Assembly: GCF_042453785.1 (NCBI RefSeq)
Contig: NC_091672.1
Span: 4,618,001-4,682,000, forward strand
Source of the DNA: Malus domestica
Taxonomy: Eukaryota; Streptophyta; Magnoliopsida; Rosales; Rosaceae
Length of the DNA stretch: 64,000 nt
Direction of reading: 5' to 3'
Part shown: piece by piece, positions 736 through 53,481 of the stretch
Layout: each line of letters starts with the position of its first letter
Position numbering within the stretch: the stretch's first letter is position 1
Program-made: the position numbers and the translations under genes
The notes under the pieces: generated by a model
Databases searched by the model: none
Told to the model about the DNA's origin: nothing
The model's input: only the letters and a program-made list of their open reading frames with translations

Positions 736-751
736 TGCTAGGTTTTCTTTA

Positions 752-1403
752 ACCCTTTGGAGTTTTGGGTCTGCTAACTATTCGAAATTGCTCAGTGTTT
801 CTAGTTAGATCTTTAGTCTTGTAACTTGTTACGTATGCACAATGACGATTTGATATGCTTTCGCTTCTTCTTTGTTTGACTCTCTCTCATTTGCGTAGTG
901 TTTTATTTTAATCCTTCTCAGTTTCTAATCCAAGGATTTTCTTTCTTGTTTTGTAGTTTGTAGTTAAGTTAATTAGAGGTTCCAAAAGAAGAAGTTGGTT
1001 TTAGTTTTGTCTTTCTTCCTTTTCTTTTGGCAAGAAGATCAGAAATATGGCTGAGGAAGTCGTTTTAAGGGTAGTTCGAGCACTTAAAGGCTCCATCCTT
1101 AGGCAAGTGAAGTTCTTGAGTGGTGTCAACCATCAAGTTCTGGATGCAAAACATTAGCTATTTTTTATAGAGGGTTTTCTGAAAGACGTGAATGCAAGAC
1201 AAGTAGAGCATGAATCAGTATGCATTTTGGTCGAGTATTTGGTGAAAGAAGAAAAACTCTACCGAGTTGTTTCCATTTGAGGAATGGGAGGATTTGGAAA
1301 GATCACTTTTGCAAAACGAGTTTATCATCACAGTAAAGGATTTGGAAAGATTACTTTGATGGGTTTTCTTAGGTGTGTGTACTGAACAATGTCAAATAGG
1401 AAA
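752..1403 (+). pseudogene. NBS-LRR resistance gene 5' fragment (copy A)
   Basis: Leader plus the start of a CC-NBS-LRR gene. A start codon at 1047 opens a frame reading MAEEVVLRVVRALKGSIL, which resembles the N-terminal coiled-coil of RPP8/RPP13-type resistance proteins (intracellular pathogen sensors). The frame continues to a P-loop-like motif, GMGGFGKIT, followed by AKRVYHHS. It holds two in-frame stops, a TAG after LDAKH and a TGA just before GMGG. The stretch that normally separates the coiled-coil from the P-loop is missing, and the other copies lack it too, so they share one already-defective ancestor. The fragment is truncated soon after the P-loop. It forms the left arm of the inverted repeat with 1427-2042. 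Family assignment rests on motifs seen here and remembered homologues. Confidence 0.8.
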
Positions 1404-1426
1404 GTACACACATCCAAGAAAACCCA

Positions 1427-2042
1427 GACTTTCTTATTTGACATTGTTCAATGCACACACCCAAGAAAACCCATCAAAGTAACCTCTAACTTTACTGTGA
1501 TGATAAACTCGTTTTGCAAAAGTGATATATCCAAACCCTCCCATTCCTCAAATTGAAACAACTTGGTTGAGTTTTCTTCTTTCACCAAATACTCAACCAA
1601 AATGCATACTGATTCCTGCTCGACTTGTCTTGCATCCACGTTTTTCAGAAAGCTCTCTATAAAAAATAGCTCATGTTCTGCATCCAGAAATGGTTGACAC
1701 CACTCAAGAACTTCACTCCCCTAAGGATGGGGCCTTTGAGTGCTCGAAGTACCCTTAAAATGACTTCCTTAGCCATATTTCTGATCTTCTTGCCAAAAGA
1801 ATGGGAAGAAAACTAAAACCAACTTCTTCTTTTGAAACCTCTAATTAACTCAACTACATACTACAAAACAAGAAAGAAAATTTCTGGGTTAGAAACTAAG
1901 AAGAATTAAAATAAAACTCTCCGCAAATGAGAGAGAGTCTAACAACGAAGAAGCAAAAGCATATCAAATCGTCATTGTGTATACGTAACTAGTTACAAGA
2001 CTAAAGATCTAACTAGTTAGCAGACCCAAAACTCCAAGGGGT
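1427..2042 (-). pseudogene. NBS-LRR resistance gene 5' fragment (copy B, inverted)
   Basis: Reverse-complement copy of 752-1403, covering the leader, the coiled-coil start and the P-loop-like region. It keeps a few bases that copy A has lost after the HHS codons, so neither copy is simply a recent clone of the other. A short open frame survives on the minus strand (about 1448-1639), but the whole is broken. The two arms meet tail to tail with only about 23 bp between them (1404-1426), and that spacer itself contains a small inverted piece of the same end. Confidence 0.8.
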
Positions 2043-2189
2043 CAACTTCAAACCTCCCAAGATGATTTTAGGAACTTGTACATGAAACAAAAAAAATACC
2101 CAAAACAAAAAATGAAGCATATCACTATGAACCATACCCTAATTATCAGTTAAGAAAAGATGAAAGTGATAGGGTTTATGTCAAAACCC

Positions 2190-2422
2190 CAAACAAAAGC
2201 CGTGTTTTCTCCATTCACCTCTTTTCCCGAGGACTGTGAAATACCAGTGGAACAATTGACTTAATTATGGATAGCTGAAGGTTTTATATCAGCATCTACA
2301 AATAAAAAGATAGAAGACATAGCATATGAGTGCTTAATTGAGTTGAAACGCTTGTGTTTGGTTCAAGTTGGAAGAATGTATTCACTTTGCAAGTTCAAGT
2401 TGGAACGTCTCCATGATCTTAT
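2190..2422 (+). pseudogene. NBS-LRR NB-ARC (winged-helix/MHD region) remnant
   Basis: One frame reads FPEDCEIPVEQLT, stop, LWIAEGFISAST, then IEDIAYECLIELKRLCLVQVG and LHDL. This is the order seen in the C-terminal part of the NB-ARC domain of CC-NBS-LRR proteins, up to the MHD-equivalent LHDL. A TAA replaces the codon between QLT and LW. The reading is cut at LHDL by the Copia element at 2423. The few bases after that element (6394 onward) look like the continuation. It is probably the downstream part of the same decayed gene as the 5' fragments at 752-2042, with the middle lost. Confidence 0.75.
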
Positions 2423-2629
2423 TGTTGCGAGTTATACATTAGTTAAAATGTAAATAGTAGTTTATTGTCCCACATTGGTGAAGTACATATGTAATACCAA
2501 TTGTAACTCCTATATATACTCCACTTTGGAGATTAATGAAATATAAGAAATTCCCAAATATTGTCATATATATTTTTGGTATTTACCATGTTTAGTTTAA
2601 TATTGGTATTTACCATGTTTAGTTCAATA
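2423..2629 (+). repeat. 5' LTR of the Copia element
   Basis: 207 bp, beginning TGTTGCGAG and ending GTTCAATA. It contains a TATA-like stretch (CCTATATATACTCC near 2510). Identical to the 3' LTR at 6182-6388. Confidence 0.95.
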
Positions 2630-2643
2630 TGGCATCAGAGCAG
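2630..2643 (+). other. Primer-binding site (initiator Met tRNA)
   Basis: TGGCATCAGAGCAG directly follows the 5' LTR. The plant consensus begins TGGTATCAGAGC, so there is one C/T mismatch. Confidence 0.85.
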
Positions 2644-2847
2644 TTCGCTCTTGGTGACTTGTGTGCTTTAAATTTTGTGCCCACATTTTTCGTGATTTCC
2701 TCCGTGTGAAAAAAAAAAAAAAAAAGTGCCGTGAACAGTGATTGGTATTTGCTACAGTACCGTGAACAGTGATTGCTACAGTCTCTGGTAAATTGTTTTC
2801 ATTCCGCTGCGTATCTTTTGTGCCTTTATTGTTCGTGATTTTGTTCA

Positions 2848-3186
2848 ATGGCTCAATATAATCATAGTGTTGTTATGCATCTTGGTGGAACAAATAAATG
2901 GATAATTGATACTGGGGCCACTAATCATGTGACAAGTGACCCTAGAGTGTTTGATGAGTTATGTGATTATGTTCGTGATCCGTATATTACTAGTGCAAAT
3001 GGAGCACTTTCCCTTGTGAAGGGTGAAGGCACTATCTCTTTGACTCCAACCTTATCACTGGTCCGTGCTTTACTTGTTCCTGATATTAAGTGCAATCTTT
3101 TGTCGGTAGGAAAACTTCTTGATACTTTATATTGTTCTGCTCACTTCTATCCTACGTATTGTTATTTTCGAGATATTCAAACTTAG
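2848..3186 (+). pseudogene. Copia polyprotein, protease part (ends at in-frame TAG)
   Basis: 112 codons opening at an ATG and containing the aspartic protease signature WIIDTGATNHVT, followed by the usual downstream block (VRALLVPDIKCNLLSVGKL). It ends at TAG 3184-3186. The next long frame, at 3220, lies 372 bases downstream of this start and is therefore in the same register: the codons 3187-3219 are open. The TAG is thus a single nonsense codon inside one polyprotein, between DIQT and KIIGYG. The normal N-terminal gag part (RNA-binding and zinc-knuckle domains) is absent upstream. This ATG may simply be the first methionine after that loss. Confidence 0.85.
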
Positions 3187-6174
3187 AAGATAATTGGTTA
3201 TGGTAAAAGGATAGGGGGTTTGTACATCTTGACTATGGAGGATACTGTTGTTTCCGGTTCAAATAATCATCAAGTTTTAAGTGCTAAAGTGGATAACAGA
3301 CATCAAATTTGGTTGTGGCATCGACGATTGGGACATCCATCATTCAGTTATATGAAGCATCTATTTCCTTCTTTGTTTCGCACTTGTAGTGATTCAGAGT
3401 TCAAGTGTGAAACATGTGTCATGGCTAAGAGTCATCGTGCTTCCTTTCCTGTAAGTGATTCTAAAGCTACTTTACCATTTGATTTGATACATTCTGATGT
3501 GTGGGGTCCTGCAAAAGTTACTTCTAATGGATTCCGTTGGTTTGTTACTTTTATTGATGATTGTACTCGGGTAACTTGGGTGTTCTTGATGAAAAATAAG
3601 AGTGATGTTCCGTTACTTCTTCAAGAATTTTGTACAATGGTATCTACTCAGTTTCAGACCAAAGTTAAGGTCTTCAGGTCTGATAACGGAGGAGAATATG
3701 TGAATCACACTTTGGCATGTTTTTTCCGTGATCATGGTATTATTCACCAGACGACTACTCCGTTTACACCCCAACAAAATGGTGTGTCCGAACGGAAGAA
3801 TCGTCAAATAATGGAGGTTGCTCGCTCCTTGATGCTAGATAAATGTGTTCCTAATCATTTGTGGGGTCATGCTGTTTTGGCTGCTGTGTATTTGATCAAT
3901 CGTGTTCCAAGTCGGGTTCTTGATTTTCAGACACCGTTTGATGTGCTACAAAAACATGTTTCTCTTGTTTCTGTCTCAAAGCTTCCTCCGAAAGTGTTTG
4001 GGTGTATTGCGTATGTGCATGTCTACTCTCATCAGCGGAGTAAACTTGATGCATGTGCTCTCCGGTGTGTCTTTATTGGGTATGCTAACAATCAAAAAGG
4101 CTATAAGTGTTATCATCCTCCGACTCAAAAAACTTATATTACCATGGATGTCACCTTCCATGAGGAAGTTTCGTATTTTGTGAAGCCCTCTTCCGACTCT
4201 CCACTTCAGGGGGAGAGGGGGAGTGAAGTGCAGATTCGAAGAGATGATATGGATGATGTGTTACAGACAGAGTTGGGAACAGAACCTATTATTTTGCGTG
4301 ATACTAATCAGTCGGCTACAGATGATCAGTTGCCTGCTGCGGATATATCTGATGATCGGTTGCCTGCTGCTGATATGTCTAACGAGTTGCCTGATGATGG
4401 TTCGTCCAGTGATGATTCTTCTAACTGTTTGGTACAAGATGGTGGCATACATGAGGTAAATTCTGACGATTCTTCTACTTATCAGTTGCCTCCACGAGCT
4501 AATCGTGGAAAACCTAAAATACAATATGAGCCTGATATGCATGCCAAAGCCAAATATCCTATCAACAATTATGTGTCTTCTCATCGTTTGTCCCAACCAT
4601 ATGCATCTTACATATGTCAGCTATCTAGTGTATCAATTCCAACAAAATTGCAAGATGCTTTGTCTGACCCTAAGTGGGTTAATGCTATGAAAGTTGAGAT
4701 GGAAGCTTTGGAAAAGAATTCTACTTGGGATTTGGTTCCGTTACCAAACGGGAAGAAAGCCGTTGGATGTAGATGGGTGTTTACTATTAAGCACAAAGCA
4801 GATGGTTCTATTGATCGGTATAAAGCCAGATTAGTTGCTAAGGGTTATACTCAAACCTATGGGGTGGACTATCAGGAGACCTTTGCTCCTGTTGCCAAAC
4901 TTAATACTGTGCGTGTTCTTCTGTCCTTGGCAGCAAACCAGGATTGGCCTCTGTTGCAGTTTGATGTTAAGAATGCTTTCCTTCATGGTGATCTTAAGGA
5001 GGAAGTGTATATGGATCTCCCACCTGGTATTGGAACATCTCCTGGAAAAGGTATTGTATGCAGGTTACGAAATGCCTTGTATGGTTTGAAACAATCTCCT
5101 AGAGCATGGTTTGGGAGGTTTACAAGTTCAATGAAGAAGTTTGGGTATATCCAGAGTCATTCAGATCATACTTTGTTTCTAAAGCGACAAAATGGTAAGC
5201 TAACTGCATTGATTATTTATGTTGATGACATGATAGTGACTGGTGATGATCAAAAGGAGATACAACACCTTCAAAAGTACCTAGCTACTGAGTTTGAGAT
5301 GAAAGAATTGGGTGAATTGAAGTATTTTCTTGGAATCGAGGTTGCACGATCCAAGCATGGTATTTTTCTATCTCAAAGGAAGTATGTTCTTGATTTGTTA
5401 GCTGAAACAGGTATGTTAGATTGCAAACCTGTTGATACTCCGATTGAGCAGAATCATCGTCTGGGCTTATTTCCAGATCAAGTTCCAACTCATAAGGAAC
5501 GGTATCAGAGGCTTGTGGGGAGATTAATTTATTTGTCTCACACTCGCCCTGACATTGCTTATGCAGTTAGTGTGGTAAGTCAGTTTATGCACTCACCTAG
5601 TGAAGTTCATATGGATGCAGTAACTCGTATTTTGAGGTACTTGAAGATGGCTCCTGGCAGAGGCCTGGTTTTCTCCAAGAATGATCATTTGAATGTCGAA
5701 GGGTATACAGATGCAGATTGGGCTGGTTCTATCACTGATCGGCGATCTACATCTGGATACTTTATGTTTGTGGGTGGTAATTTAGTTACTTGGAGAAGCA
5801 AGAAACAAAAAGTGGTGGCTAGGTCAAGTGCAGAAGCTGAGTTTCGTGGTATGTCTCATGGTGTATGTGAGTTGTTGTGGTTGAAAAAATTGTTGAGAGA
5901 TCTTGGGTTTAAACACAAAAGTGCTATGAAACTTCATTGTGATAACAAGGCTGCTATTGAGATTGCTCATAATCCAGTGCAACATGATCGAACAAAACAT
6001 GTGGAGATTGATCGACATTTCATTAAGGAAAAATTGGATGCTGGAATTATTATGTTTCCGTTTGTGAGATCTGAAGATCAACTGGCTGATGCTCTTACTA
6101 AGGCTGTGTCTAATAGTGCGTTTTCCGACTCGCTTGACAAGTTGGGCATGCGTGACATCTTTGCACCAACTTGA
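3187..6174 (+). pseudogene. Copia polyprotein: integrase, reverse transcriptase, RNase H
   Basis: An uninterrupted frame of 984 codons from the ATG at 3220, open back to 3187. Order: GAG-pre-integrase (WLWHRRLGHPSF with CETCVMAKSH), integrase, reverse transcriptase, RNase H. Counting from 3220, the integrase catalytic residues are D93 (HSDVWGP), D155 (RSDNGGEY) and E191 (SERKNR), which gives the exact D-D35-E spacing. The reverse transcriptase has its YVDD box near residue 667. RNase H shows GYTDADWAG and the SSAEAEF block. These domains copy the element's RNA and insert the DNA. No catalytic residue appears lost, so the only visible lesions of the element are the upstream TAG and the missing gag. 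It could be mobilised only with gag supplied by another copy (inference). Confidence 0.93.
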
Positions 6175-6181
6175 GGGGGAG
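6173..6181 (+). other. Polypurine tract
   Basis: GAGGGGGAG immediately before the 3' LTR, the standard plus-strand priming site of Copia elements. Confidence 0.85.
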
Positions 6182-6388
6182 TGTTGCGAGTTATACATTA
6201 GTTAAAATGTAAATAGTAGTTTATTGTCCCACATTGGTGAAGTACATATGTAATACCAATTGTAACTCCTATATATACTCCACTTTGGAGATTAATGAAA
6301 TATAAGAAATTCCCAAATATTGTCATATATATTTTTGGTATTTACCATGTTTAGTTTAATATTGGTATTTACCATGTTTAGTTCAATA
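6182..6388 (+). repeat. 3' LTR of the Copia element
   Basis: 207 bp, identical to 2423-2629. Followed by target duplication CTTAT at 6389-6393. Confidence 0.95.
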
Positions 6389-8452: not shown

Positions 8453-9766
8453 TCACACTTGTGCACGCCACTCATTGTACATATTCATAGCCAAAGTGTT
8501 TCTCCATGCAGTCCATTCTTGTGTAGGTTGAACAGTCTCAATCATATCTTCATCATCATCACTACTTTCAGATTCGTCCATGTTTAGAATTTCATTTTCT
8601 ATCGGATCAGCTGACATATGCCTTCTAATAAGATTATGTAAGAGGCAGCAGGCTGTCATAATCCTAAGTTGTGTTTTAATTGGGAAAAATGATGGACCTC
8701 TTAAGATGCTCCAACGCATCTTAAGTAGTCCAAAACATCTCTCAATGACATTTCTAGCTTGAACATGTTTCATATTGAAATACTCCTCATGATTAATTGG
8801 GAGTCTTCTATTTCTCCACTCCGAGAGATGGTAACGCACTCCCCTATACGGTGCAAGGTATCCTGGACCATTTGTGTACCCACCATCCACAAGGTAGTAA
8901 CACCCTAAAACACCAAAAAATGTATGTTACTATATATAAGAAAATTGAGGCTTCAAATTACTAATATAAACAAATAATCTATTGTTGCCCGTGGGAACTT
9001 TTAATCCCGATGGTCTACTTATCGCATCTCGGAGTACTCTAGAATCAAAGGCCGACCCCCTGGGTACACAAATATAAAATTCATGTCCAGATTACAAACT
9101 CCCAACATATTGGTCGCAATCTCCCCCTTCCTTGATCGGTATCTTGGTTTATCTCGCTTAGGGACATGAACGTTAATGTAAGTCCCATCCAATGCCCCCA
9201 AGCAATTCTAAAAAAAAAAATCATTAACATTAGTAAGCTCAATATATTTAATTACATTAATTTTAGAAGTAATTTTTATAAAATATGAAGAATACCTCAA
9301 ACCAACTCCATTTAGGATTTGGGTAGGCATTAGGAATGGGTTTTGGCACTTTCAAAAGTCTACATTGTAGCCTTAACACTCCATGTAGAATGGAATTGAA
9401 ATACCTACTTATGGTCTCCCCTGATCGACAAAACCTACTCCCAATTGTACGATTCTTGACATGATGTGCAAGTATATGCAAAAACATGCAAACTTGTTCT
9501 TCCATTGTCACTACACCATCCAATTTTACTCTATCGTGGTCACGAAGCATTTGACATAAATAATGGAACGTTCTTCTATCCATTCTAATTTGGTTCACAC
9601 ACTGAACATCATCATATCCTATTATGCTGTCTAAATAGGCTGACCCTACCATTCTCCTAACAAATGTGCAATTTCTAAGTGCAAGTTGCCAATTCCGCCT
9701 TCTAGCTGAATTATGATTCATCATGAACCACATCATCAACCAAGTCACAATATTCAAGTACCACAA
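8453..9766 (-). pseudogene. Harbinger DDE transposase (HARBI1-like), frameshifted
   Basis: Three coding blocks on the minus strand. 9766-9263: N-terminal region with the helix-rich part (MDRRTFHYLCQML, VCMFLHILAHHVKNR). 9201-9019: GALDGTYI with the first catalytic Asp. 8890-8453: VDGGYTNGPGYLAPYRG with the second Asp, then NVIERCFGLLKMRW with the catalytic Glu, stop at 8453. Introns separate the blocks. Near 9060 the conserved FVYPG is followed by a jump into another frame, in which SAFDSRVLRDAIS and PSGLKVPTGNN can be read. About 7 bp appear to be missing at this point compared with the family pattern FVYPGWEGSA. The transposase is therefore inactive unless this is an assembly error. The catalytic triad itself is present. 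Confidence 0.85.
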
Positions 9767-14988: not shown

Positions 14989-15053
14989 TTCCTTCATCCA
15001 AAATCCTCTCTCTCGTCTGTCGTCTACTTTTTTAAATGATTAATTTCTCACAA

Positions 15054-15550
15054 GAGTAAACTGTCAATTTGCCCCCTGAACTATCACCCAACTTTCGATT
15101 TGCCCCCTGAACTTTTTAATTGGAAAATTAAGGACTTAAACTAATTTTTTTGGCCGATTTCCCCCCTACCGTTAGTTTTTCATAAATTTCATTCAAATTA
15201 ACGTTAACTCTTATCATGTGCAAACCACGTAACTCTCATTTGTGGACAAAAGCGTCATTTCACTAGACCTTCAAACAGAAAAGCTATAGAATCACACATA
15301 TTTGCATAGGTTTATATTTTAGAAATCTAAGGTTTTCAATTATTTTAAAGAATGAAGTGACCGAACTACCCACACATGTTGTGCATATGCTTCCATTTAA
15401 CAGAAATTTGGATGGAATGAATGAAAAATTAACATCAGGGGGCAAATCGGCCAAAAAAATTAGTTTAAGTCCTTAATTTTCCAATTAAAAAGTTCAGGGG
15501 GCAAATCAAAAGTTGGGTGATAGTTCAGCGGGCAAATCGGCAGTTTACTC
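15054..15550. mobile_element. MULE-type MITE in the ML pseudogene 5' leader
   Basis: 497 bp with long inverted ends (GAGTAAACTGTCAATTTGCC at the left, matched in reverse at the right). It is flanked by an exact 10-bp duplication TTTCTCACAA (15044-15053 and 15551-15560). The intact ML gene has this 10-mer once, in the leader near 46795, so the unoccupied site is directly visible in this window. Confidence 0.92.
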
Positions 15551-16176
15551 TTTCTCACAAAATTTACAGATAATATTGTTAAATCGAATCGGAGCGACGC
15601 AATCTGTGAAGATATAGCTCTTCAGTTGACGTCCATCATCCCCCTCATCATCCTAATTTCTCTATGCCTGGTTGCCCCTCTCATCCACGCCAAGGACGTC
15701 AACTATTGCGGTGGGTTTCTCACACTAACCGTTTTCTCTTTTCCTTTAATTTATGAAAGCATGATACTTTCCTTTCGGAACAAGTTTTCAATTCTCTGTT
15801 TGTTTCCTGAGAAAATTGCAAATTTTCCACCTTACAGTAATTCAACTAATTGCTTCATTGTTTGTAGTCAAATACGATTTGGGCTCTTCTGTTTTTGATA
15901 CAATCACAACAAGAAGGAATCTTTACTATGTATATGCATCTACACTCTCTAGCTGATTAGACAAAGTCAACATCTTTGATATGTATTTGCAATTTCAAAT
16001 TGTTTAAACAAAAATATAAAATTTGGGTTTTGTTTCTCTTTCGATAGTTTTGGTATTGGATTTATGTATTCAATCGAATGGTATTTCGGTGTCGAATTTT
16101 GTTATGGTTTGTTTGGTTCTTGTTATACTGATGTTGGTTAAATGAAACTTAAGCGGATTTTGGAGTATCTTCGGAT

Positions 16177-16453: not shown

Positions 16454-17140
16454 CAGATAAGAAGGCTGACTATGATGTCAAGGTCTCTGCGGTTGAGATT
16501 AATCTTTACCCCGTGGCAAGAGGCAAGCTTGCCAGCTTCAGCATTTCTGAAACTGCAGGTTCTATCTCACACTTGTAACTTTTTGAGTGAGTTTTTGTTT
16601 GCATGTAATTGTTATTAGATAAACACAAAAACGAATCAGATAATCCAACACTGTTTGAAGAGCTTTTGGGAATTTAGTTTTAACTAGAGTAAACTCGTAT
16701 ATGTGGTAATAGGTGTATCAATCTCTTGGGGGAAATTGGTGATTGAGGTTTCATACTTTGGTTGGCACATCCACAGTGAGACTCATGACCTTTGCCGCAG
16801 AAACATCTTGCCCAGTTTCAACCGGTGATTTTGTGATTGCCCACTCGCAAGATTTACCAGGATATACTCCACCTATAAGTCCTCCTTGCCATATCTACTT
16901 ATTATATTATTTTGGCTTTTAGTGCTACCCGTGAGTTGTCCCTACAAACTTGAATAAGCCTATGAGTTTAGTTGTTGGTTTCTGTTTTGACCAATACAAA
17001 GTTTAAGTTGATCCCGCCTGAATTTTTTGAATAGAATGAAATAGTTTATGCTTAACTGTTAGATTGTCACATTAGAAAAAGGATGAAAACAGCCAAAGGT
17101 CGTATTGTAAGTAATACAAAGGTGCATTTTTCACGTTTGG

Positions 17141-18268
17141 GTCTGCTAACTATTCGAAATTGCTCTGTTTCTAGTTAGATCTTTAGTCTTGTAACTTGTT
17201 ACGCATGCAAAATGACGATTTGATATGCTTTCGCTTCTTCATTGTTGGACTCTCTCTCATTTGCGGAGTGTTTTATTTTAATCCTTCTCAGTTTCTAACC
17301 CAAGGATTTTCTTTCTTGTTTTGTAGTCTGTAGTTGAGTTAATTAGAGGTTCCAAAAGAAGAATCTGGTTTTAGTTTTGTCTTTCTTCCTCTTCTTTTGG
17401 CAAGAAGATTAGAAATATGGCTGAGGAAGTTGTTTTAAGGGTACTTTGAGCACTCAAAGGCCCCATCCTTAGGGAAGTGAAGTTGTGTCGCCGATCAAGT
17501 TCTGGATGCAGAACATAAGCTATTTTTTATAAAAGGCTTTCTAAATGACGTGGATGCAAGACAAGTAAAGCAAGAATTAGTATGCATTTTGGTTGAGTAC
17601 TTGGTGAAAGAAGAAAAACTCAACCAAGTTGTTTCCATTTGAGGAATGGGAAGGTATGGAAAAATCACTTTTGCAAAACAAGTTTATCATCACAGTAATG
17701 TTAGGGGTTACTTTGATGGGTTTTCTTGGGTGTGTGTACTTAATAATGTCAAATAGGAAAGTCTGGTAAGAAATTTTAATTGGACTTACTTCTGACACCA
17801 TGAGCTAACACAAAATATTGCAAAATACTGAAATACTTGAGAAACTTTGCATCATCCAACGAGAAAGGAAATGTTTGGTGGTGTTTGATGACATTTGGAG
17901 TTGTGATGCATGGAACTCTTTGAAATCTGGATTTCCAATTGATGCAGAAATAAAAGTCAAATACTACTCACCACCCATTGCTCATAAGTAGCTCCATGTG
18001 TAGACAGAAATGGTTTGAATCACAAATCTCGTCTACAAAGTAAAGATGAAAGCTTTTTGAGAAGATAGTAACGTAGTGTACAAGTAATTTCACACTCAGC
18101 TTTGCTATGCTTTCTAGTTTTATCATTGTTTTGTTTTTTGCCTGTGGAATATGCTTAGTTTTCTTATTTATTAAGCAAGCTTGTTTTTTAGTCTAGAATC
18201 AATTTAGCCTTATTAATAGATATTCCCAAATGAGTTTTTCTTGATAAAGAATAGAGGAAAATGATACA
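17141..18268 (+). pseudogene. NBS-LRR resistance gene fragment (copy C)
   Basis: The same leader, coiled-coil start and P-loop-like block as 752-1403, but running further. After the P-loop-like [18 protein letters not shown] it reaches a kinase-2 motif, KCLVVFDDIWSCDAWNSL (near 17875-17930), then diverges into noncoding sequence shared with 23497-24371. Stops occur early (TGA after the first 11 codons from the ATG near 17418). It begins exactly where the ML pseudogene ends. Confidence 0.8.
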
Positions 18269-18282
18269 TTAGAGGATGGGCG

Positions 18283-21384: not shown

Positions 21385-21601
21385 TTTAAAATGATTCTTC
21401 AGAATCCAAAATAAAGATCCAATCTGAGCCTCAGTGAAATCCTGCAACCCATCGATAATGTAATCTGAATCCATCCATTCTCGCCGACCCTTTGCTTCTA
21501 CCAGAGGAAGCTTAAACGGTACTTTCTTTCCTCCCTCTCTCATTTCTTAGTTGGTTTGTTTTCTTTTTTTTTTTTTTTTTTTTTAATTTTTTTTATCTTA
21601 A

Positions 21602-22377
21602 GCCATTTGCGCAAGGAGACCAATTTCGCTTGCTGGGTTACAGAGTAAGGGGAGTTGGTTCGTGAAATGGAAGGGTTTAGGTTTAAAGCCCAAATTATCA
21701 GTTCTCTCCACCTAATTACTAACCAATTATACATTTTTACTTTTGATGTCCTGCAACTGTGAACTATTTCACATTTGCTTTCTTACAACCAAGGTTTAAA
21801 ATATCGATGACATCGGAAATATCGGTAGTCTTAAAAACACGAAAATTTCGTTCGAAATATTGGGATATTATCGATGTCGATAAAAATTGAATAAAAACCA
21901 AGGAAATTGTAAGAAAAACTTGGAAATTTTTATTGAAACTTTGCAGAATGTTTATTTAGTCAATTATCTATTAGTTTATCACAAAAAATTGGAAGGAAAT
22001 GCATTGCACGATGGATTTAACTTATTTAAGTTGATTATATAGCGAGCTGGCAAACATTGTAAGTGTAAAAAATATGTAGTAATTAATGAAAGAAGTTTAA
22101 ACATACCATAATCATTTATATATAATGAATTAGTACAATATTTTACACTTTATACATTGCATGCTAAGATACATGAGTGACTTAGTATCACATAGAGTTC
22201 ATATCAAGGTCTAAAATATCGATGATATCAGAAATATCGGTAGTCCAAAAACACGGAACTTTCGATGGAAATATCGGGATAATATCGATATTTTAGACCT
22301 TCCTTACAACTATGAACTATTTTCTTGCTGATCCTTATTTTTTGCTAGGTTTTCTTTGTTTCGCTGCGTTTCTTTTG
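21602..22377. repeat. Dispersed duplicated unit X, copy 2 (split by a MITE)
   Basis: Copy of 471-735 in two pieces, 21602-21789 and 22303-22377, separated by the hAT MITE. A poly-T tract precedes it (about 21563-21583), as at copy 1. Homology with copy 1 stops after TTTCTTTT. Confidence 0.7.
21790..22302. mobile_element. hAT-type MITE
   Basis: 513 bp with ends CAAGGTTTAAAATATCGAT and GAAGGTCTAAAATATCGAT (reverse complement of the right end), and an exact 8-bp duplication CTTACAAC (21782-21789, 22303-22310). Copy 1 of unit X has CTTACAAC once, so the empty site is visible near 665. Eight-base duplications fit hAT. Confidence 0.88.
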
Positions 22378-23496: not shown

Positions 23497-24371
23497 AATG
23501 TATCATTTTCCTCTTTTTATCAAGAAAACCCATTTGGAAATATCTATTAATAAGACTAAATTAATTCTAGACTAAAAAACAAATTTGCTTAATAAATTAG
23601 AAAGCTAAGCATATTCCACAAATAAAAGACAATGATAAAACTACAAAACATAATAAAGCTAAGTAAAATTACTTGTATACTCCGTTACTATTTTCTCAAA
23701 AAGCTTCCAATTTTACTTTGTAAACGAGATTTGTGATTCAAACCATTTATGTCTGCATAGGGAGCTCCTTATAAGCAATGGGTAGTGAGTAGTATTTAGC
23801 TTTTATTTCTGCATCAATTGGAAATCCATATTCAAAGAATTTCATGCATCACAACTTCAAATGTCATCAAACACCACCAAACACCACCAAACATTTCCTT
23901 TTCAAGTATTGCAGTATGTCATTTCTACTATATTTTTTTAGATCATGGTAAAATAAGTAAATCTAATTAAAATCTCTTTCTAGACTTTCCTATTTAATAT
24001 TGTTGAGTACACACACCGAAGAAAACCCTAACTTTACTATATTGATAAACTCGTTTTGCAAAAGTTATCTTTCCAAATCATTCCTCAAATGGAAAAACTC
24101 GGTTCAGTTTTTCTTCGTTCACCAAATACTTAACCAAAATGCATATTGATTCTTGCTATACTTGTCTTGCATCCACGTCTTTCAGGAAGCTCTTTATAAA
24201 AAAAGCTCATGTTCTGCATCCAATACTTAATGGCTGACACCACTCAAGCACTTCACTTTCCTAAAAATGGGGACTTTGAGTGCTTAAAGTACCCTTAAAA
24301 CGAATTCCTCAACTATATTTCTAATCAATGTGACAAAAGAAGGGGAACAAAAACAAAACTAAAACCAACTT
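23497..24371 (-). pseudogene. NBS-LRR resistance gene fragment (copy D, inverted)
   Basis: Reverse-complement copy of 17141-18268 without its leader: coiled-coil start, degenerate P-loop-like region (GMG block partly lost), kinase-2 region and the noncoding tail that ends at the same point as copy C (AATGATACATT). More diverged than A-C, with several stops and small deletions, and a local CACCACCAAA triplication near 23870-23890. Confidence 0.75.
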
Positions 24372-24750
24372 CTTCTTTCTTGTTTTGTAGTGTGTAGTTA
24401 AGTTAATTAAAGGTTCCATAAGATGCAGCTGGTTTTAGTTGTCTTTGTTCCCCTTCTTTTGAGGGTACTTAAAGCACTCAAAAGCACCATCCTTAGAGAA
24501 GTGAAGTGCTAGATGCAAAATATAAGTTATTGTTTATAGAGGGCTTTCAAAAATACATGCATACAAGACAAGTAGAGCAAAAATCAGTTTGCATTTTGGT
24601 TGAGTATTTGGTGAAAGAAGAAAAACTCAAGTTTTTCCATTTGAGATGTGAGGATTTAGAAATATCACTTTTGCAAAACGAGTTTATCATTACAGTAAAG
24701 TTAGGGTTTACTTTGATAGGTTTTCTTAGGTGTGTGTACTCAACAATTTC
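23995..24750. repeat. Second inverted repeat of NBS-LRR sequence
   Basis: Copies D and E face each other around about 24374 with almost no spacer. The paired arm length is limited by copy E to roughly 370 bp. Orientation is head to head, the opposite of the 752-2042 repeat. Confidence 0.75.
24378..24750 (+). pseudogene. NBS-LRR resistance gene fragment (copy E)
   Basis: Starts in the leader (CTTGTTTTGTAGTGTGTAG) and runs through the coiled-coil start to the broken P-loop region and the GTGTGTACTCAACAAT end point. About 70 bp around the start codon are deleted relative to copy A. It lies head to head with copy D, a few bases apart. Confidence 0.75.
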
Positions 24751-28919: not shown

Positions 28920-29718
28920 TCAAAAGCTTCATTTTTAATCACCGGGATAGTGCACAAGGCTTCGGCTATTCGACGACTCGACGATCTCTTCGATTTTGGC
29001 GTCGGAGAGGTGATCTGTTTGGAGCTTCGGGACTGGAATCCTGGTTGTGTAGTTTGAAGCATGATTTGTGGCTGAGGAACCTGCATGATTTGATTTCAGA
29101 GTCAAGCAGCAGCAACCCCATCAAAATGGTGGTCGTTTTGGTCCAAGAGAACCGCTCATTCGACCACATGCTGGATGGATAAAGTCCATAAACCCTGAAA
29201 TCAACGGAGTCACTGGCTCCGAATCCAACCCCATTTCCACCTCGGACCCAAACTCCACCCAAATCTTCTTCCGCGACAACTCTGCTTACATTGACCCGGA
29301 CCCCAACCACTCCATCCAAGCTGTGTACGAGCAAGTCTTCAGCGAGCCATGGACCGAGGCCTCCGCTTCCAAAACCCTACCCCCTACCATGAACGGCTTC
29401 GCTCAAAATGCTGAAACAACACAAACCGGTTTAGCTGAGACCGTGATGAATGGTTTTAGGCCCGAAAACATCCTCGTTCACAGGGAGCTGGTGAAGGAGT
29501 TTACGGTATGTGACCGGTGGTTTGCGTCGGTGCCAACTACGACGCAGCCGAACCGGCAGTACATCCACTCTGCGACGTCGCATGGGTTGACGAGGAATGA
29601 TAATCAGAAGCTAATTGAAGGGTTGCCTCAGAAGACAATATTTCAGTCGTTGGACGATGAGAGCTTTTCTTTTGGGATTTACTTTCAGTCATTTCCGTCC
29701 ACTCTTTTGTACAGGTAA
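28920..29718 (+). pseudogene. Captured non-specific phospholipase C (NPC) fragment
   Basis: About 210 codons match the N-terminal half of plant non-specific phospholipase C (phosphoesterase family, cleaving membrane phospholipids): PIKMVVVLVQENRSFDHML, then SINPEINGVTGSE, SAYIDPDPNHSIQAVYEQVF, CDRWFASVP, TQPNRQYIHSATSHG and GLPQKTIFQSLD. A one-base loss near 29172 shifts the frame between HML and the next block. The match ends at LLYR followed by GTAATAAC, which looks like the donor of the gene's next intron, and a few intron-like bases follow. The segment is therefore a genomic-type capture of exon plus intron edge inside interior 1 of the retroelement. It cannot encode the enzyme. Confidence 0.85.
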
Positions 29719-46858: not shown

Positions 46859-49133
46859 ATGGCTCTTCAGTTGAAGTCCATCGTCCCCCTCATCATCCTA
46901 ATTTCTCTCTGTCTGGATGCCCCTCGCGTCCAAGCCAAGGACGTCAACTACTGCGGTGGGTTTCTCACTCTTACCGTTTTCTCTTTTCCTTTCAATTTAT
47001 GAAGGCATGATACTTTACTTTCGGAACAAGTTTTCAATTCTCTGTTTGTTTCCTGAGAAAATCGCAAATTTTCCACTTTTTACTGTAATTCAACTGATTG
47101 TTTCATTGTTTGTTGTCAAATTCGATTTGGGTTCTTCTGTTTTTTGATACAATCACAACAAGAAGGAATCTTTAAATATGTATATGCATCTACACTCTCT
47201 AGCTGATTAGACAAAGTTAACATCTTTGATATGTATTTGCAATTTCAGATTACTTAAACAAAAATATAAAATCTGGGTTTGTTTCTCTTTCGATAGTTTT
47301 GGTATTGGATGTATGTATTCAATCGAATGGTGTTTCGGTGTTGAATTTTGTTATGGTTTATTTGGTTCTTGTTATACTGATGTTGGTTAAATGAAACTTA
47401 AGCGGATTTGTGGAATATGTTCAGATAAGAAGGTTGACTATGATGTCAAGGTCTCTGCGGTTGATATTAATCCTTACCCCGTGGCAAGAGGCAAGCCTGC
47501 CAGCTTCAGCATTTCTGCAACTGCAGGTCCTAGTTCTATCTCACACTTAAAACCTTTTTAGTGAGTTTTTGTTTACATGTAATTGTCATTAGATAAACAC
47601 AAAAACGAATCGGATAATCCAACTCTGTTTGAAGACCTTTTGGGAGTTTAGTTTTAAGTAGAGTAAACTCCTATATGTGGTAACAGGTGCATCAATCTCT
47701 GGAGGGAAATTGGTGATTGAGGTTTCATACTTTGGTTGGCACATCCACAGTGAGACTCATGACCTTTGCGCAGAAACATCTTGCCCTGTTTCAACTGGTG
47801 ATTTTGTGATTGCCCACTCGCAAGATTTACCAGGATATACTCCACCTGTAAGTCCTCCTTGCCATATATACTTAATATATTATTTTGGCTTTCAGTGTTA
47901 CCTGTGAGTTGTCCCTACAAACTTGAATAAGCCTATGAGTTTAACTGTTGGTATCTGTTTCGGCCAATACAAAGTTTAAGTTGATCCCACCTGAATTTTT
48001 TGAGTACAATGAAATAGTTTATGCTTAACTGTTAGATTGTCACATTATAAAAGGATGCAGACGGTTAAATGTCATATTCTAAGTAATACAAAGGGGCAAT
48101 TATCACGTTTGGTAACCATGGTGCACAGGTGATCACTTGATTGAATACATGTTTGGAAAGTGTTGTTTGTTTGCCAATCTTCCTCATCGTGCTTATTCTG
48201 TATAGTGCGAAAAAAGGGACATAAAACCAAGAAAGTTTGTTGTTCTTCACTGTGGTCAAAATTCATGTCCCCACTTCTGTCCTGTCTTCTTCTAGGCTTC
48301 TAGCAGTACATTACTCTTTTCTCTCTATCTTTGCATGTGTAACATTACCCCTTCTTCTTGGTGACCAAGCTAAAAAAAATTTAATTGGTCTATTCTTAAA
48401 CAAACAAAACTGTCTTACATTCCGACATTGATTTTTATTGGATTGACACTATTTTGATTTCACCAGAGGCTTGTTGGCTCTTTGACCAACTCCCAAATAA
48501 CCCTGGAATATATACTTATTTGAACCAAGGAGGCCTAGTCTTAGGAATTCAATGACGATTTTATTTTGTAACTAATACATTAAGAATTACTTAACTTAAT
48601 CTGGTTTTTCTCTTGGGCATGTTTAATTCAGTTTCCACTTACTTATCATAAAGTATTTCAGGTCAGTTATAAGATATTGCTATCAAAGAGTTATTTCAGA
48701 GTTGGTCTAATAGAGTCTAGTTGAGTCTCAAGCTTCAATACTCCATATATTACATTCCCTTGGTGCCAAAGTTACTATGATCATCCATGTTGGCATGTTG
48801 CTAATGCATTTACAATTTTAATTGCAGAAAACCAGTAGAAAATTGCTCATGGTATAATGCTTTGATAATCTGTATATGGATTATATGTGATTCTGCTTCA
48901 TAAATCAAATTGCTACTGCATTGTTTTTAATCACCCTGTCCCCATCAACATTGCCGCTTCTGTAATCTCTTTGTTTATATTCGTCTACTATGTTTTGTGT
49001 TCTGACCAAGTTCGTCAAAATGCAGGGTTCGTACTCTCTTAAAATGAGGCTGTTTGACGGAAACAACCATGAGCTGACATGCATTGCCTTCGATTTTGAC
49101 ATCGGGTTTGCATCATCTGTGGCTGATAGTTAA
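46859..49133 (+). CDS. ML-domain (MD-2-related lipid recognition) secreted protein
   Basis: Four exons: 46859-46955, 47425-47526, 47687-47847 and 49026-49133, all with GT donors and AG acceptors. Together they give 155 codons. Residues about 1-26 are a signal peptide (IVPLIILISLCL core, ending VQA). The mature part is an ML domain, a small beta-sandwich that binds lipids or sterols, as in NPC2 and plant ROSY1-type proteins. It has spaced cysteines that would pair (VNYC, HDLC, TSCP, ELTC) and the family-like LPGYTPPGSYSLKMRLFD near the end. It should act in the secretory route, vacuole or cell surface. The start is the only ATG ahead of the signal peptide, and the frame is clean. The exact lipid cannot be deduced. 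A broken paralogue lies at 14989-17136. Confidence 0.93.
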
Positions 49134-51329: not shown

Positions 51330-52653
51330 ATAGTCTCTCTCTGATGTGCCCCATAGCGTATATCGGGCTATACCCTTTCATCCTCTCTCCGAAAACTTAG
51401 GTATTCCTGGTTTCTACTTTATTCTCTATCAATGAGCCGATAAACTTGGTTATTCCGGGTTTATACATGTACTCTCGTTTTCTAACGTGTCACGTGAGAA
51501 GACAGATATTGATATTTCCCCTATACCAAATGATATGAACTCATGTATCCTTGCATTAGTGACTTGCTAACAAATAGTTTACAAGCAACCTACATTGTTG
51601 TGAGGATATTCTTGATGGTTAATTTTATAATTAGCACAATTTGTGGAGGGTTTTGAGCTGAACATGATGGATATCATCATGGTTGGGTGTGATTGCGCGT
51701 ACAAAAAGTTTGAGCCACGCTTTAGCTGTTATCTCGAGGGGTTCCTCCTAACTGATAAAAAGAGGAAAAGGAAAGCTTTGCTTTTGCTCACTTGAGATTC
51801 AATCATGGCCAAATTGGCAAACCTGTCTCCCCGGAATTAATTCTTGTCCTGTGACACATAACCAATTAGTTTACGCTCATGATGATTTGGTCTAGTGACA
51901 TATGTTTTTTATTTTGTTAGAGATACAGTACACTGCATGTGCTAATTAAAAACAAAATAAAAAGGTTGTTTAGGGTATGTTTACATTCTTACACATGGTA
52001 CCTGGTTATATAGGTACGAGATAAACAACCCTAAATGGTGATCTTGAATTGTTTTAAGCATGGCATACCTATCCCAACATGGGATCCACTTTTTTCTTCG
52101 CTTCTTGTGTTACTGAACCTAGGATATGTTAGGGAATGAATATCCAACATATTTGTTCCTCGTAGGTAAATATGCAGTGGAGATCGGGATACCAAGGTGG
52201 TGTTGTTCACAAACCATCACCTCTCGTCATGTGAGAAGTTAAATTGTATTACTAGCCCGAAAAACTGCGTCATGAGGTGTATGTGAGTCCTCCATCAACA
52301 TGTATTTGATTGATTCACTCTACGCATTATGTGGTAGAATTGATCACAAGTAGACCACTTAAATCATGAATGATATTTGGTGAAGGGTCAATTAGCTCTA
52401 ATGGAGGAGGAGGGGGTGCCCCAGCCACCCACCAAAAATTCTAAAAGGCATCCCAACACTTTTAACTTTTTCAATTGTCGCTTTGGAGCAACTGGAAACC
52501 AAAAGGGAAAATGTCATCAACTAGGGACATTCAATCTCCTGACCAGTCCTTTTCACCCCAAAACACTCTTCCTTTTATCCTCTCCCACTCTTTGCGATCA
52601 TCTCAATGCGATCATATCACATGCCATTCCAAGAACCAAAACAAAAGTCTGAG
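51330..52653. other. Intergenic; upstream of the glutaredoxin-like gene
   Basis: Near 51390-51470 and again at about 49885-49970 a phrase of the type AAACTTGG.TAT.CC.GGTTT recurs, so the outer MITE appears to have landed in a local repeat. No gene recognised. The region directly upstream of 52654 must hold the promoter, but I cannot point to elements. Confidence 0.4.
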
Positions 52654-53481
52654 ATGAAAGGAATGAGAGGAAAGTTTCTCAAGAAATTGAAGGCCATCCC
52701 AACAATTAACACTTTGAAACATGGCCTGCTCTTTCAGCTCGATCCTGCGGAAAAGTTCTCCAATCCGAACCACCAAACACTGTCTCAGCTCGTTCGCAAA
52801 AATGAAGATTGTCAGAAGAAGAACACTCTATCGGCGGAGCTTGTATTTAAAGAGCTCAAAGATGGAGATACGGGACTGGGTTCTAATGTCTGTAAGGAGA
52901 ATATTACACCGCCCTCAATGGAAACCAAAGAAACAGTTATGGAGGATGACATTTTTCATGATGCAGAGGATGATGATGAACTTCCGTCTTTGTTCGATTT
53001 CGAGGAAAAGTGTCCGCCAGGAGGAGGCGATTGTGTCGTTCTATATTCAACAAGCGTGACAGGGGTTAGGAAAACGTTCGAGGACTGCAAGGCAATCCGG
53101 TTTTTGCTGGAGAGTTTCAAAGTACCGGTGTATGAGAGGGACCTTTCGATGCACATGGAATTCAGGGAAGAATTGTGGAGGATATTTGGCGGTAGAGTGA
53201 TCCCTCCGAGGCTTTTCATCAAGGGAAGGTACATTGGTGGAGCTGAAGAAGTTACAGCACTTCATGAGCAAGGAAAGCTGAAAAAGCTCTTCGAAGGAAT
53301 CCCAATTGACCTCTCTAGCTCCCCATGCACCGGCTGTGCCAACGTGCGCTTCGTTGTGTGCTTCAATTGCAATGGCAGTCGCAAAGTTTTCACGGATGGT
53401 GATCACGAAAACGATGAGTTGTGCATTAGATGTCCGGAGTGCAACGAAAATGGTTTGATCAAGTGCTCCATCTGCTGCTGA
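52654..53481 (+). CDS. Glutaredoxin-like protein with C-terminal Cys-pair zinc domain
   Basis: A single exon of 275 codons from the ATG at 52654 (MKGMRGKFLKKLKAIP). An in-frame ATG at 52606 would add 16 residues, but this family usually starts MKG(M)RGKFLKKLK. Residues ~1-115 are a variable, charged leader with an acidic stretch (EDDDELP). Residues ~126-212 are a glutaredoxin fold: CVVLYSTSVTGVRKTFEDC, then GRVIPPRLFIKGRYIGGAEEV. The classical CPYC/CxxC redox site is replaced by TSVTGVRKTFEDC, as in the At5g39865-like group. Residues ~225-275 carry four Cys pairs (CTGC, CFNC, CIRCPEC, CSICC), a DnaJ-like zinc pattern. Activity is unknown: likely a regulatory or metal-binding role rather than disulphide reduction (inference). 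Confidence 0.93.
   Translation: MKGMRGKFLKKLKAIPTINTLKHGLLFQLDPAEKFSNPNHQTLSQLVRKNEDCQKKNTLSAELVFKELKDGDTGLGSNVCKENITPPSMETKETVMEDDIFHDAEDDDELPSLFDFEEKCPPGGGDCVVLYSTSVTGVRKTFEDCKAIRFLLESFKVPVYERDLSMHMEFREELWRIFGGRVIPPRLFIKGRYIGGAEEVTALHEQGKLKKLFEGIPIDLSSSPCTGCANVRFVVCFNCNGSRKVFTDGDHENDELCIRCPECNENGLIKCSICC

Follow-up and report, generated by a model that had tools for sequence, protein, structure and literature searches.

A P-loop palindrome in a degenerate CC-NLR cluster of apple is probably a by-product of inverted duplication and not a working small-RNA gene

Introduction

Apple roots are reported to contain miR482-family RNAs and NLR phasiRNAs (PMC8453155). NLR-targeting miRNAs may have started as inverted repeats of NLR pieces, according to passages of PMC10575705 (citing Allen 2004 and Zhang 2016) and PMC6523410. 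In rice, the Lgc1 locus, a tail-to-tail arrangement of GluB4 and GluB5, silences glutelins, as summarised in a passage of PMC10647759. Here we describe a palindrome of an NLR 5' region in apple, which we call P1. A sequence-only reading had proposed P1 as a candidate hairpin small-RNA locus that might help to control NLR genes. The literature searched named no such locus, which speaks for the papers covered and not for print as a whole.

Results

P1 is a long, near-perfect inverted repeat

The window, the whole stretch of DNA that was analysed, is 64,000 nt long (C12:4618001-4682000) and belongs to a genome of 651 Mb in 19 contigs, of which C3, C7 and C13 are others named below. P1 and the sequence to its right contain the following features.

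749..1405, + strand: left arm (P1L), a pseudogene made up of the NLR leader, a shortened start of the coiled coil (MAEEV...), the P-loop (GMGGFGK) and roughly 100 nt past it
1406..1427, no strand: spacer, 22 nt between P1L and P1R
1428..2045, - strand: right arm (P1R), an inverted second copy of the NLR 5' region of P1L
2046..2177, - strand: further 5' leader of P1R, 132 nt with no counterpart in P1L
2196..2422, + strand (that of P1L): NLR winged-helix fragment just beyond P1R (WH_DRP, E 2.4e-14), cut by a Copia element
2423-6388, strand not given: Copia element with identical 207-bp LTRs (2423-2629 and 6182-6388) and CTTAT on both sides

In a local alignment the two arms (657 nt for P1L, 618 nt for P1R) agreed at 570 of 618 aligned pairs and differed at 48, with a further 39 gap columns and a BLAST E-value of 0. 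The arms were also recovered as ungapped inverted-repeat pieces (I1-I6) that are 90-94% complementary. The predicted RNA fold of 749-2045 had a minimum free energy of -931.6 kcal/mol, whereas 10 dinucleotide shuffles averaged -296.7 (sd 6.3), and 584 of the 657 bases of the 5' arm paired with the other arm. Perfect pairing ran for at least 21 nt in eight places (212 nt in total, the longest 37 nt). P1 is thus a long near-perfect inverted repeat, and a transcript, if made, is predicted to fold as a long hairpin. These results agree with the sequence-only reading, which had described a tail-to-tail repeat at 752-2042 (our ends lie within a few bases of these), arms of about 620-650 bp, a gap of about 23 bp and a long hairpin upon read-through.

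P1 derives from a decayed CC-NLR

The content given in that reading (leader, coiled-coil start and P-loop) was confirmed, with Pfam matches in the + arm. When P1L was read with X at its stops, the NB-ARC match (E 2.9e-5) was just above its cut-off, while the Rx_N match (E 2.5e-4) fell below its curated cut-off. In P1L, Rx_N (profile 4-59) abuts NB-ARC, whereas 82 residues separate the two in the NLR of the C7 locus L014. Similarity to Rx_N (below cut-off), NB-ARC and WH_DRP occurs in this order on one strand, with tblastn matches in the window, as expected for a CC-NLR-derived pseudogene. A functional CC-NLR with an open frame and complete Rx_N, NB-ARC and LRR was not found at P1, as P1L is interrupted by TAG and TGA stops and has an internal deletion. 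The P1R leader (2017-2177) is 84.5% identical to the leader (L012:2046-2204) of N12, a decayed NLR elsewhere on C12.

The Copia element that cuts the winged-helix fragment has a 995-codon open frame with integrase (rve) and reverse transcriptase (RVT_2) domains and is a recent insertion. Elsewhere in the window are a DDE_Tnp_4 (plant transposon) fragment (8453-8926, -), an open frame of the phosphoesterase family (29089-29718, +) and another that has both a glutaredoxin domain and a GRXCR1/2 C-terminal domain (52543-53481, +).

Five units in the window share the same lesions

The NLR 5' unit of P1 is present in five copies in the window: P1L, P1R and the three listed here.

17136..18270, + strand: unpaired copy (C2), which continues past kinase-2 into sequence that appears to be intron in the C7 genes
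23497..24378, - strand: P2L, one arm of another palindrome (head to head), NLR 5' unit of P1
24373..24750, + strand: arm P2R of the second palindrome, NLR 5' unit of P1, overlapping P2L by 6 nt at the centre

The second palindrome (23497-24750) sits 22 kb from P1. All five units have one internal deletion breakpoint in common, and the missing stretch is kept in N12 and in three C7 NLRs (L014-L016); N12 has 267 nt between its two matching pieces, and L014 has 352 nt. A TGA occurs at the same place, just before the P-loop, in 5/5 units and in neither N12 nor the C7 genes, and the P2 arms also have small frameshifts beside this common TGA. The common deletion and stop triplet show that the five units descend from one dead gene, so that the gene that was copied was already dead and not live.

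Other repeats in the window adjoin these units. A repeat of about 690 bp, 91.8% alike, occurs at 16454-17140 and 47422-48112, the right end of the former coinciding with the start of C2. Sequence from the left flank of P1 (421-737) is found again, split in two, on the left side of the second palindrome (21555-22377).

An unpaired copy is about as close to the arms as they are to one another

An unpaired copy of the same unit allows the history of the arms to be read from sequence. The three-way comparison of P1L, P1R and C2 used 595 homologous gap-free columns (764 onward; 15 of 610 columns, non-homologous in C2, were dropped). Identities over these columns were 545 for P1L-P1R, 545 for P1L-C2 and 542 for P1R-C2. 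Two-against-one sites were similarly even (23 for P1L=P1R, 23 for P1L=C2 and 20 for P1R=C2), and among polarisable sites the shared derived states numbered 1, 4 and 4, respectively. The best fork, P1L+C2 (72/79), was unsupported, and the AU test left both alternatives standing (P1L+P1R, p = 0.158; P1R+C2, p = 0.154). A star tree of this kind fits a single inverted duplication and a later meeting of the arms equally well. A hint that the arms are sister copies (sites 32/24/20; P1L+P1R fork 48/52) came with the 15 non-homologous C2 columns included; without them the site counts changed to 23/23/20 and P1L+C2 was the weak fork instead, with neither fork supported.

Each arm is therefore no nearer to its hairpin partner than to unpaired C2, 15 kb away, and these equal distances give no sign of the palindrome being kept. 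In the second palindrome, P2L and P2R were less alike (82.7% of aligned bases) than either was to P1L (85.8% for P2L and 86.9% for P2R). The distance comparisons of the two palindromes show no trace of selection for pairing or of gene conversion between arms, and the pairing kept over time that would mark a hairpin-siRNA locus with a kept function was not seen when the arms were set against C2. Changes between the arms also showed no bias towards preserving G:U pairs: 16 of the 52 mismatches are G:U in a + transcript, 16 in a - transcript and 20 in neither. Judged by the equal distances, both arms appear to have drifted since their formation without sign of constraint on pairing. Substitution rates in plants are 4 to 7 changes per billion site-years, so that a distance of 0.089 between the arms would have taken some 6-11 million years to build up.

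Relatives and palindromes elsewhere in the genome

The genome similarity search gave at least 20 matches, with 13 candidates scored, and its figures are lower bounds. Among the matches listed, 6 are the window's own units, and the best outside the window is N12 (C12:4767369-4768207), with two pieces at 75% and 79%; a leader piece of N12, matching at 85%, lies 3.8 kb upstream. The remaining 11 listed matches, on C7, C3 and C13, are 67-78% identical over 97-230 nt. N12 (in L011) is itself decayed: read by eye, it has a stop shortly before the P-loop, and the P-loop lacks its lysine. On C7, both long exons are open in L015 and in L016, and the first exon only was seen in L014.

Fourteen regions were taken by coordinate (L009-L022), of which eight contain NLR sequence (L011, L013-L018 and L020, the last an NLR second exon). 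Palindromes were sought in all 14 and in the window. One of the eight NLR-bearing regions (L017) has an NLR palindrome, an unrelated one:

L017:5410-7084 (C13:9351410-9353084), head to head: CC-NLR palindrome with arms of about 820 nt, 93% alike, comprising leader and coiled-coil start

One side of it continues into a frameshifted NLR and the other stops in the coiled coil. Other palindromes, of 230-512 nt at 70-78%, were found in L010, L019, L020 and L021. As the regions were picked for likeness to P1 or nearness to such loci, the frequency of palindromes among them is not an unbiased rate. The window has four more inverted pairs beyond the two palindromes described. A palindromic stretch at 15052-15552, about 75% alike, showed no relation to NLRs.

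Shared 21-mers point to dead sister copies

Words of 21 nt from the arms (637 from P1L and 598 from P1R) were counted in ten of the 14 regions (L009-L018, with L019-L022 left out) and in the sister units. Exact matches occurred in the C2 stretch (76/637 for P1L and 33/598 for P1R) and in the P2 stretch (22 and 28). Outside the window, decayed N12 (L011) was the only one of the ten loci with any (16/637 and 14/598). The NLR loci L013-L018 had none, the smallest mismatch number being 1 to 3 and the longest common word 19 nt, and L009, L010 and L012 had none either.

With at most one mismatch allowed, just 0-3 of the 637 or 598 words were found in the C7 NLRs (L014-L016). With at most three, the numbers rose to 37-45/637 for P1L and 25-32/598 for P1R, compared to 0-3 in five clean control stretches; being above the control level, these words make weak targeting of live NLRs conceivable. 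In a further control, L012, 21 and 12 words matched with up to two mismatches, compared to 0 in the five other controls; L012 is not clean because the N12 leader lies inside it.

The sequence-only reading had suggested that P1 might control NLR genes and that shared 21-mers would be informative. This comparison was run, and among the loci compared no intact NLR with matching 21-mers was found. Together with the arms having drifted as far from each other as from unpaired C2, the lack of exact 21-mers in L013-L018 speaks against such control.

A miR482-like site lies in the P-loop

The P-loop, which the sequence-only reading had placed within the arms and which Pfam bears out, also contains a site resembling that of miR482.

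1281..1302, + strand: miR482-like P-loop site, mismatched to miR482b at 3 positions, compared to 4 in the corresponding site of the other arm (1547-1526, -)

The miR482b sequence was taken from a passage of PMC5328274, and four peach variants from passages of PMC9500734 and PMC11642718. The mismatches to miR482b fall at positions 8, 10 and 11 (script score 6), which makes miR482 cleavage at this site doubtful. With the four peach variants the site scored 5, 5, 8.5 and 10. The best scores in 29 control stretches of 1.3 kb were 9 (miR482b) and 7.5 (ppe-miR482a-3p), so that with miR482b the site is better than any control. Scores with miR482b elsewhere were 7.5-8.5 in L014-L016, 8 in the other arm and 10 in C2. 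Compared with miR482b itself, the 22-mers of the arms differ at 4/22 positions on the + strand (1526-1547) and at 3/22 on the - strand over 1281-1302. No Rfam family, including that of MIR482/2118, matched the window at its gathering score.

The centre of P1

Most of the spacer is another short stretch of the NLR unit, present here for the third time, as judged from its matches to arm sequence: 1407-1426 matches 1454-1473 at 95%, and 1403-1426 can pair with 1360-1383. Two jumps within about 60 nt, both next to short repeated motifs, would be the trace of serial template switching. From this 20-nt third copy, the most likely origin of the centre is serial template switching between short homologies while the DNA was replicated or repaired.

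Discussion

The data above suggest that P1 is probably an inverted duplication in a degenerate CC-NLR cluster, with its hairpin a by-product, and not a working small-RNA gene. We propose that one CC-NLR lost the piece between its coiled coil and P-loop and gained a stop triplet before the P-loop, and that this dead gene, as the shared lesions indicate, then gave rise to several local copies in either orientation. To judge by how the pieces in 749-2422 are ordered and oriented, an inverted copy of the 5' region would have been placed inside another copy, replacing the part between P-loop and winged helix. Serial template switching would have built the centre, and the arms would have drifted afterwards. 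With no sign in the sequence of kept pairing, P1 resembles common debris of a gene cluster more than a working small-RNA gene. Two observations count against this description: the eight perfect runs of at least 21 nt would suffice for a Dicer-like enzyme if a transcript exists, and the miR482-like site of the + arm has a better score than the sites of the three C7 NLRs, a difference that might reflect constraint.

Could the hairpin nevertheless work? If it silences at all, the more plausible target is the cluster itself, with the hairpin or converging transcripts feeding 24-nt siRNAs that methylate the dead units and their copies and leave working genes unregulated. Inverted repeats in plants commonly attract methylation, P1 has transposon pieces around it, and it shares exact 21-mers with its sister units in the C2 stretch (76 and 33) and the P2 stretch (22 and 28). 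Such silencing needs no selection and so would look like plain debris in sequence; it overlaps with the inverted duplication that we favour and is compatible with it, and we hold it as a tentative possibility. Silencing in trans would need more, namely leader-driven read-through, dicing, and P-loop siRNAs that act on the NLR family. The strong predicted fold, its eight perfect runs, the presence of the P-loop and the leader of each arm pointing inward would suit this activity, but the arms have not been kept alike, the closest relative (N12) is itself decayed, Rfam gave no match in the window, and exact 21-mers with L013-L018 number 0 (0-3 words at one mismatch or fewer in L014-L016), which together make it unlikely. 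A transcribed proto-MIR482-type locus, with P-loop small RNAs reaching divergent NLR mRNAs through 2-3 mismatches, we consider distinctly unlikely. If it were true, miRNA seeds would arise repeatedly, as NLR 5' palindromes recur in the genome (two here and one on C13).

Two further explanations concern the origin of the palindrome. A foldback or inverted-repeat transposon with an NLR piece inside it could account for two palindromes of one unit 22 kb apart, for P1 arms that align out to 749 and 2045, and for the repeat at 16454-17140 that abuts C2. However, C2 is unpaired, the two palindromes differ in polarity and centre, and the homology of P1R to the NLR leader passes the supposed end, to 2177. 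Neither defined ends shared by several genomic copies nor any further full-length copy outside the window was found among the matches listed, and we rejected this explanation as very unlikely. An assembly artefact, in which two haplotypes or copies were joined tail to tail, has in its favour that a single assembly was the source. Against it, the arms differ at 50/595 columns and by unshared indels, the junction has a 20-nt copy of arm sequence and the window contains no N, so that such a join is hardly credible.

Returning to an inverted duplication within a dead cluster, the hairpin of P1, if transcribed, may give siRNAs against itself and its dead sister copies, while regulation of working NLR genes by P1 is unlikely. 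Of the sequence-only reading, the hairpin potential and the P-loop stand, with a miR482-like site besides, and the control of NLR genes does not. P1 is best read as a fossil of the kind of sequence that may give rise to NLR-targeting miRNAs. It offers a clear example of the raw material for the inverted-duplication model, an NLR P-loop palindrome from cluster rearrangement, and the comparison of arms with an unpaired copy of the same unit provides a sequence-only test for other candidates. The three NLR palindromes in the window and 14 regions suggest that an unbiased genome-wide count would be worthwhile.

How does P1 compare with known systems? Like MIR482/2118 genes, it is an inverted repeat of the NLR P-loop, and it has the sense copy in the 5' arm and the antisense copy in the 3' arm, in the same order as ppe-miR482a 5p/3p in a passage of PMC11642718. 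Unlike these genes, it has arms of 618-657 nt, without a known mature miRNA, an Rfam match or constraint on the arms. Like Lgc1, it consists of tail-to-tail inverted gene copies from which a read-through hairpin RNA could be made; Lgc1, however, silences expressed genes of its own family, whereas the five units here are dead and exact 21-mers are absent from L013-L018. In its domains and their order P1 is like clustered CC-NLR (Rx_N / NB-ARC / winged-helix) pseudogenes, with which it also shares stops, frameshifts, an internal deletion and local duplication in both orientations. What sets P1 apart from these is that two palindromes from one dead ancestor lie within 25 kb, and that one of them is joined tail to tail just past the P-loop.
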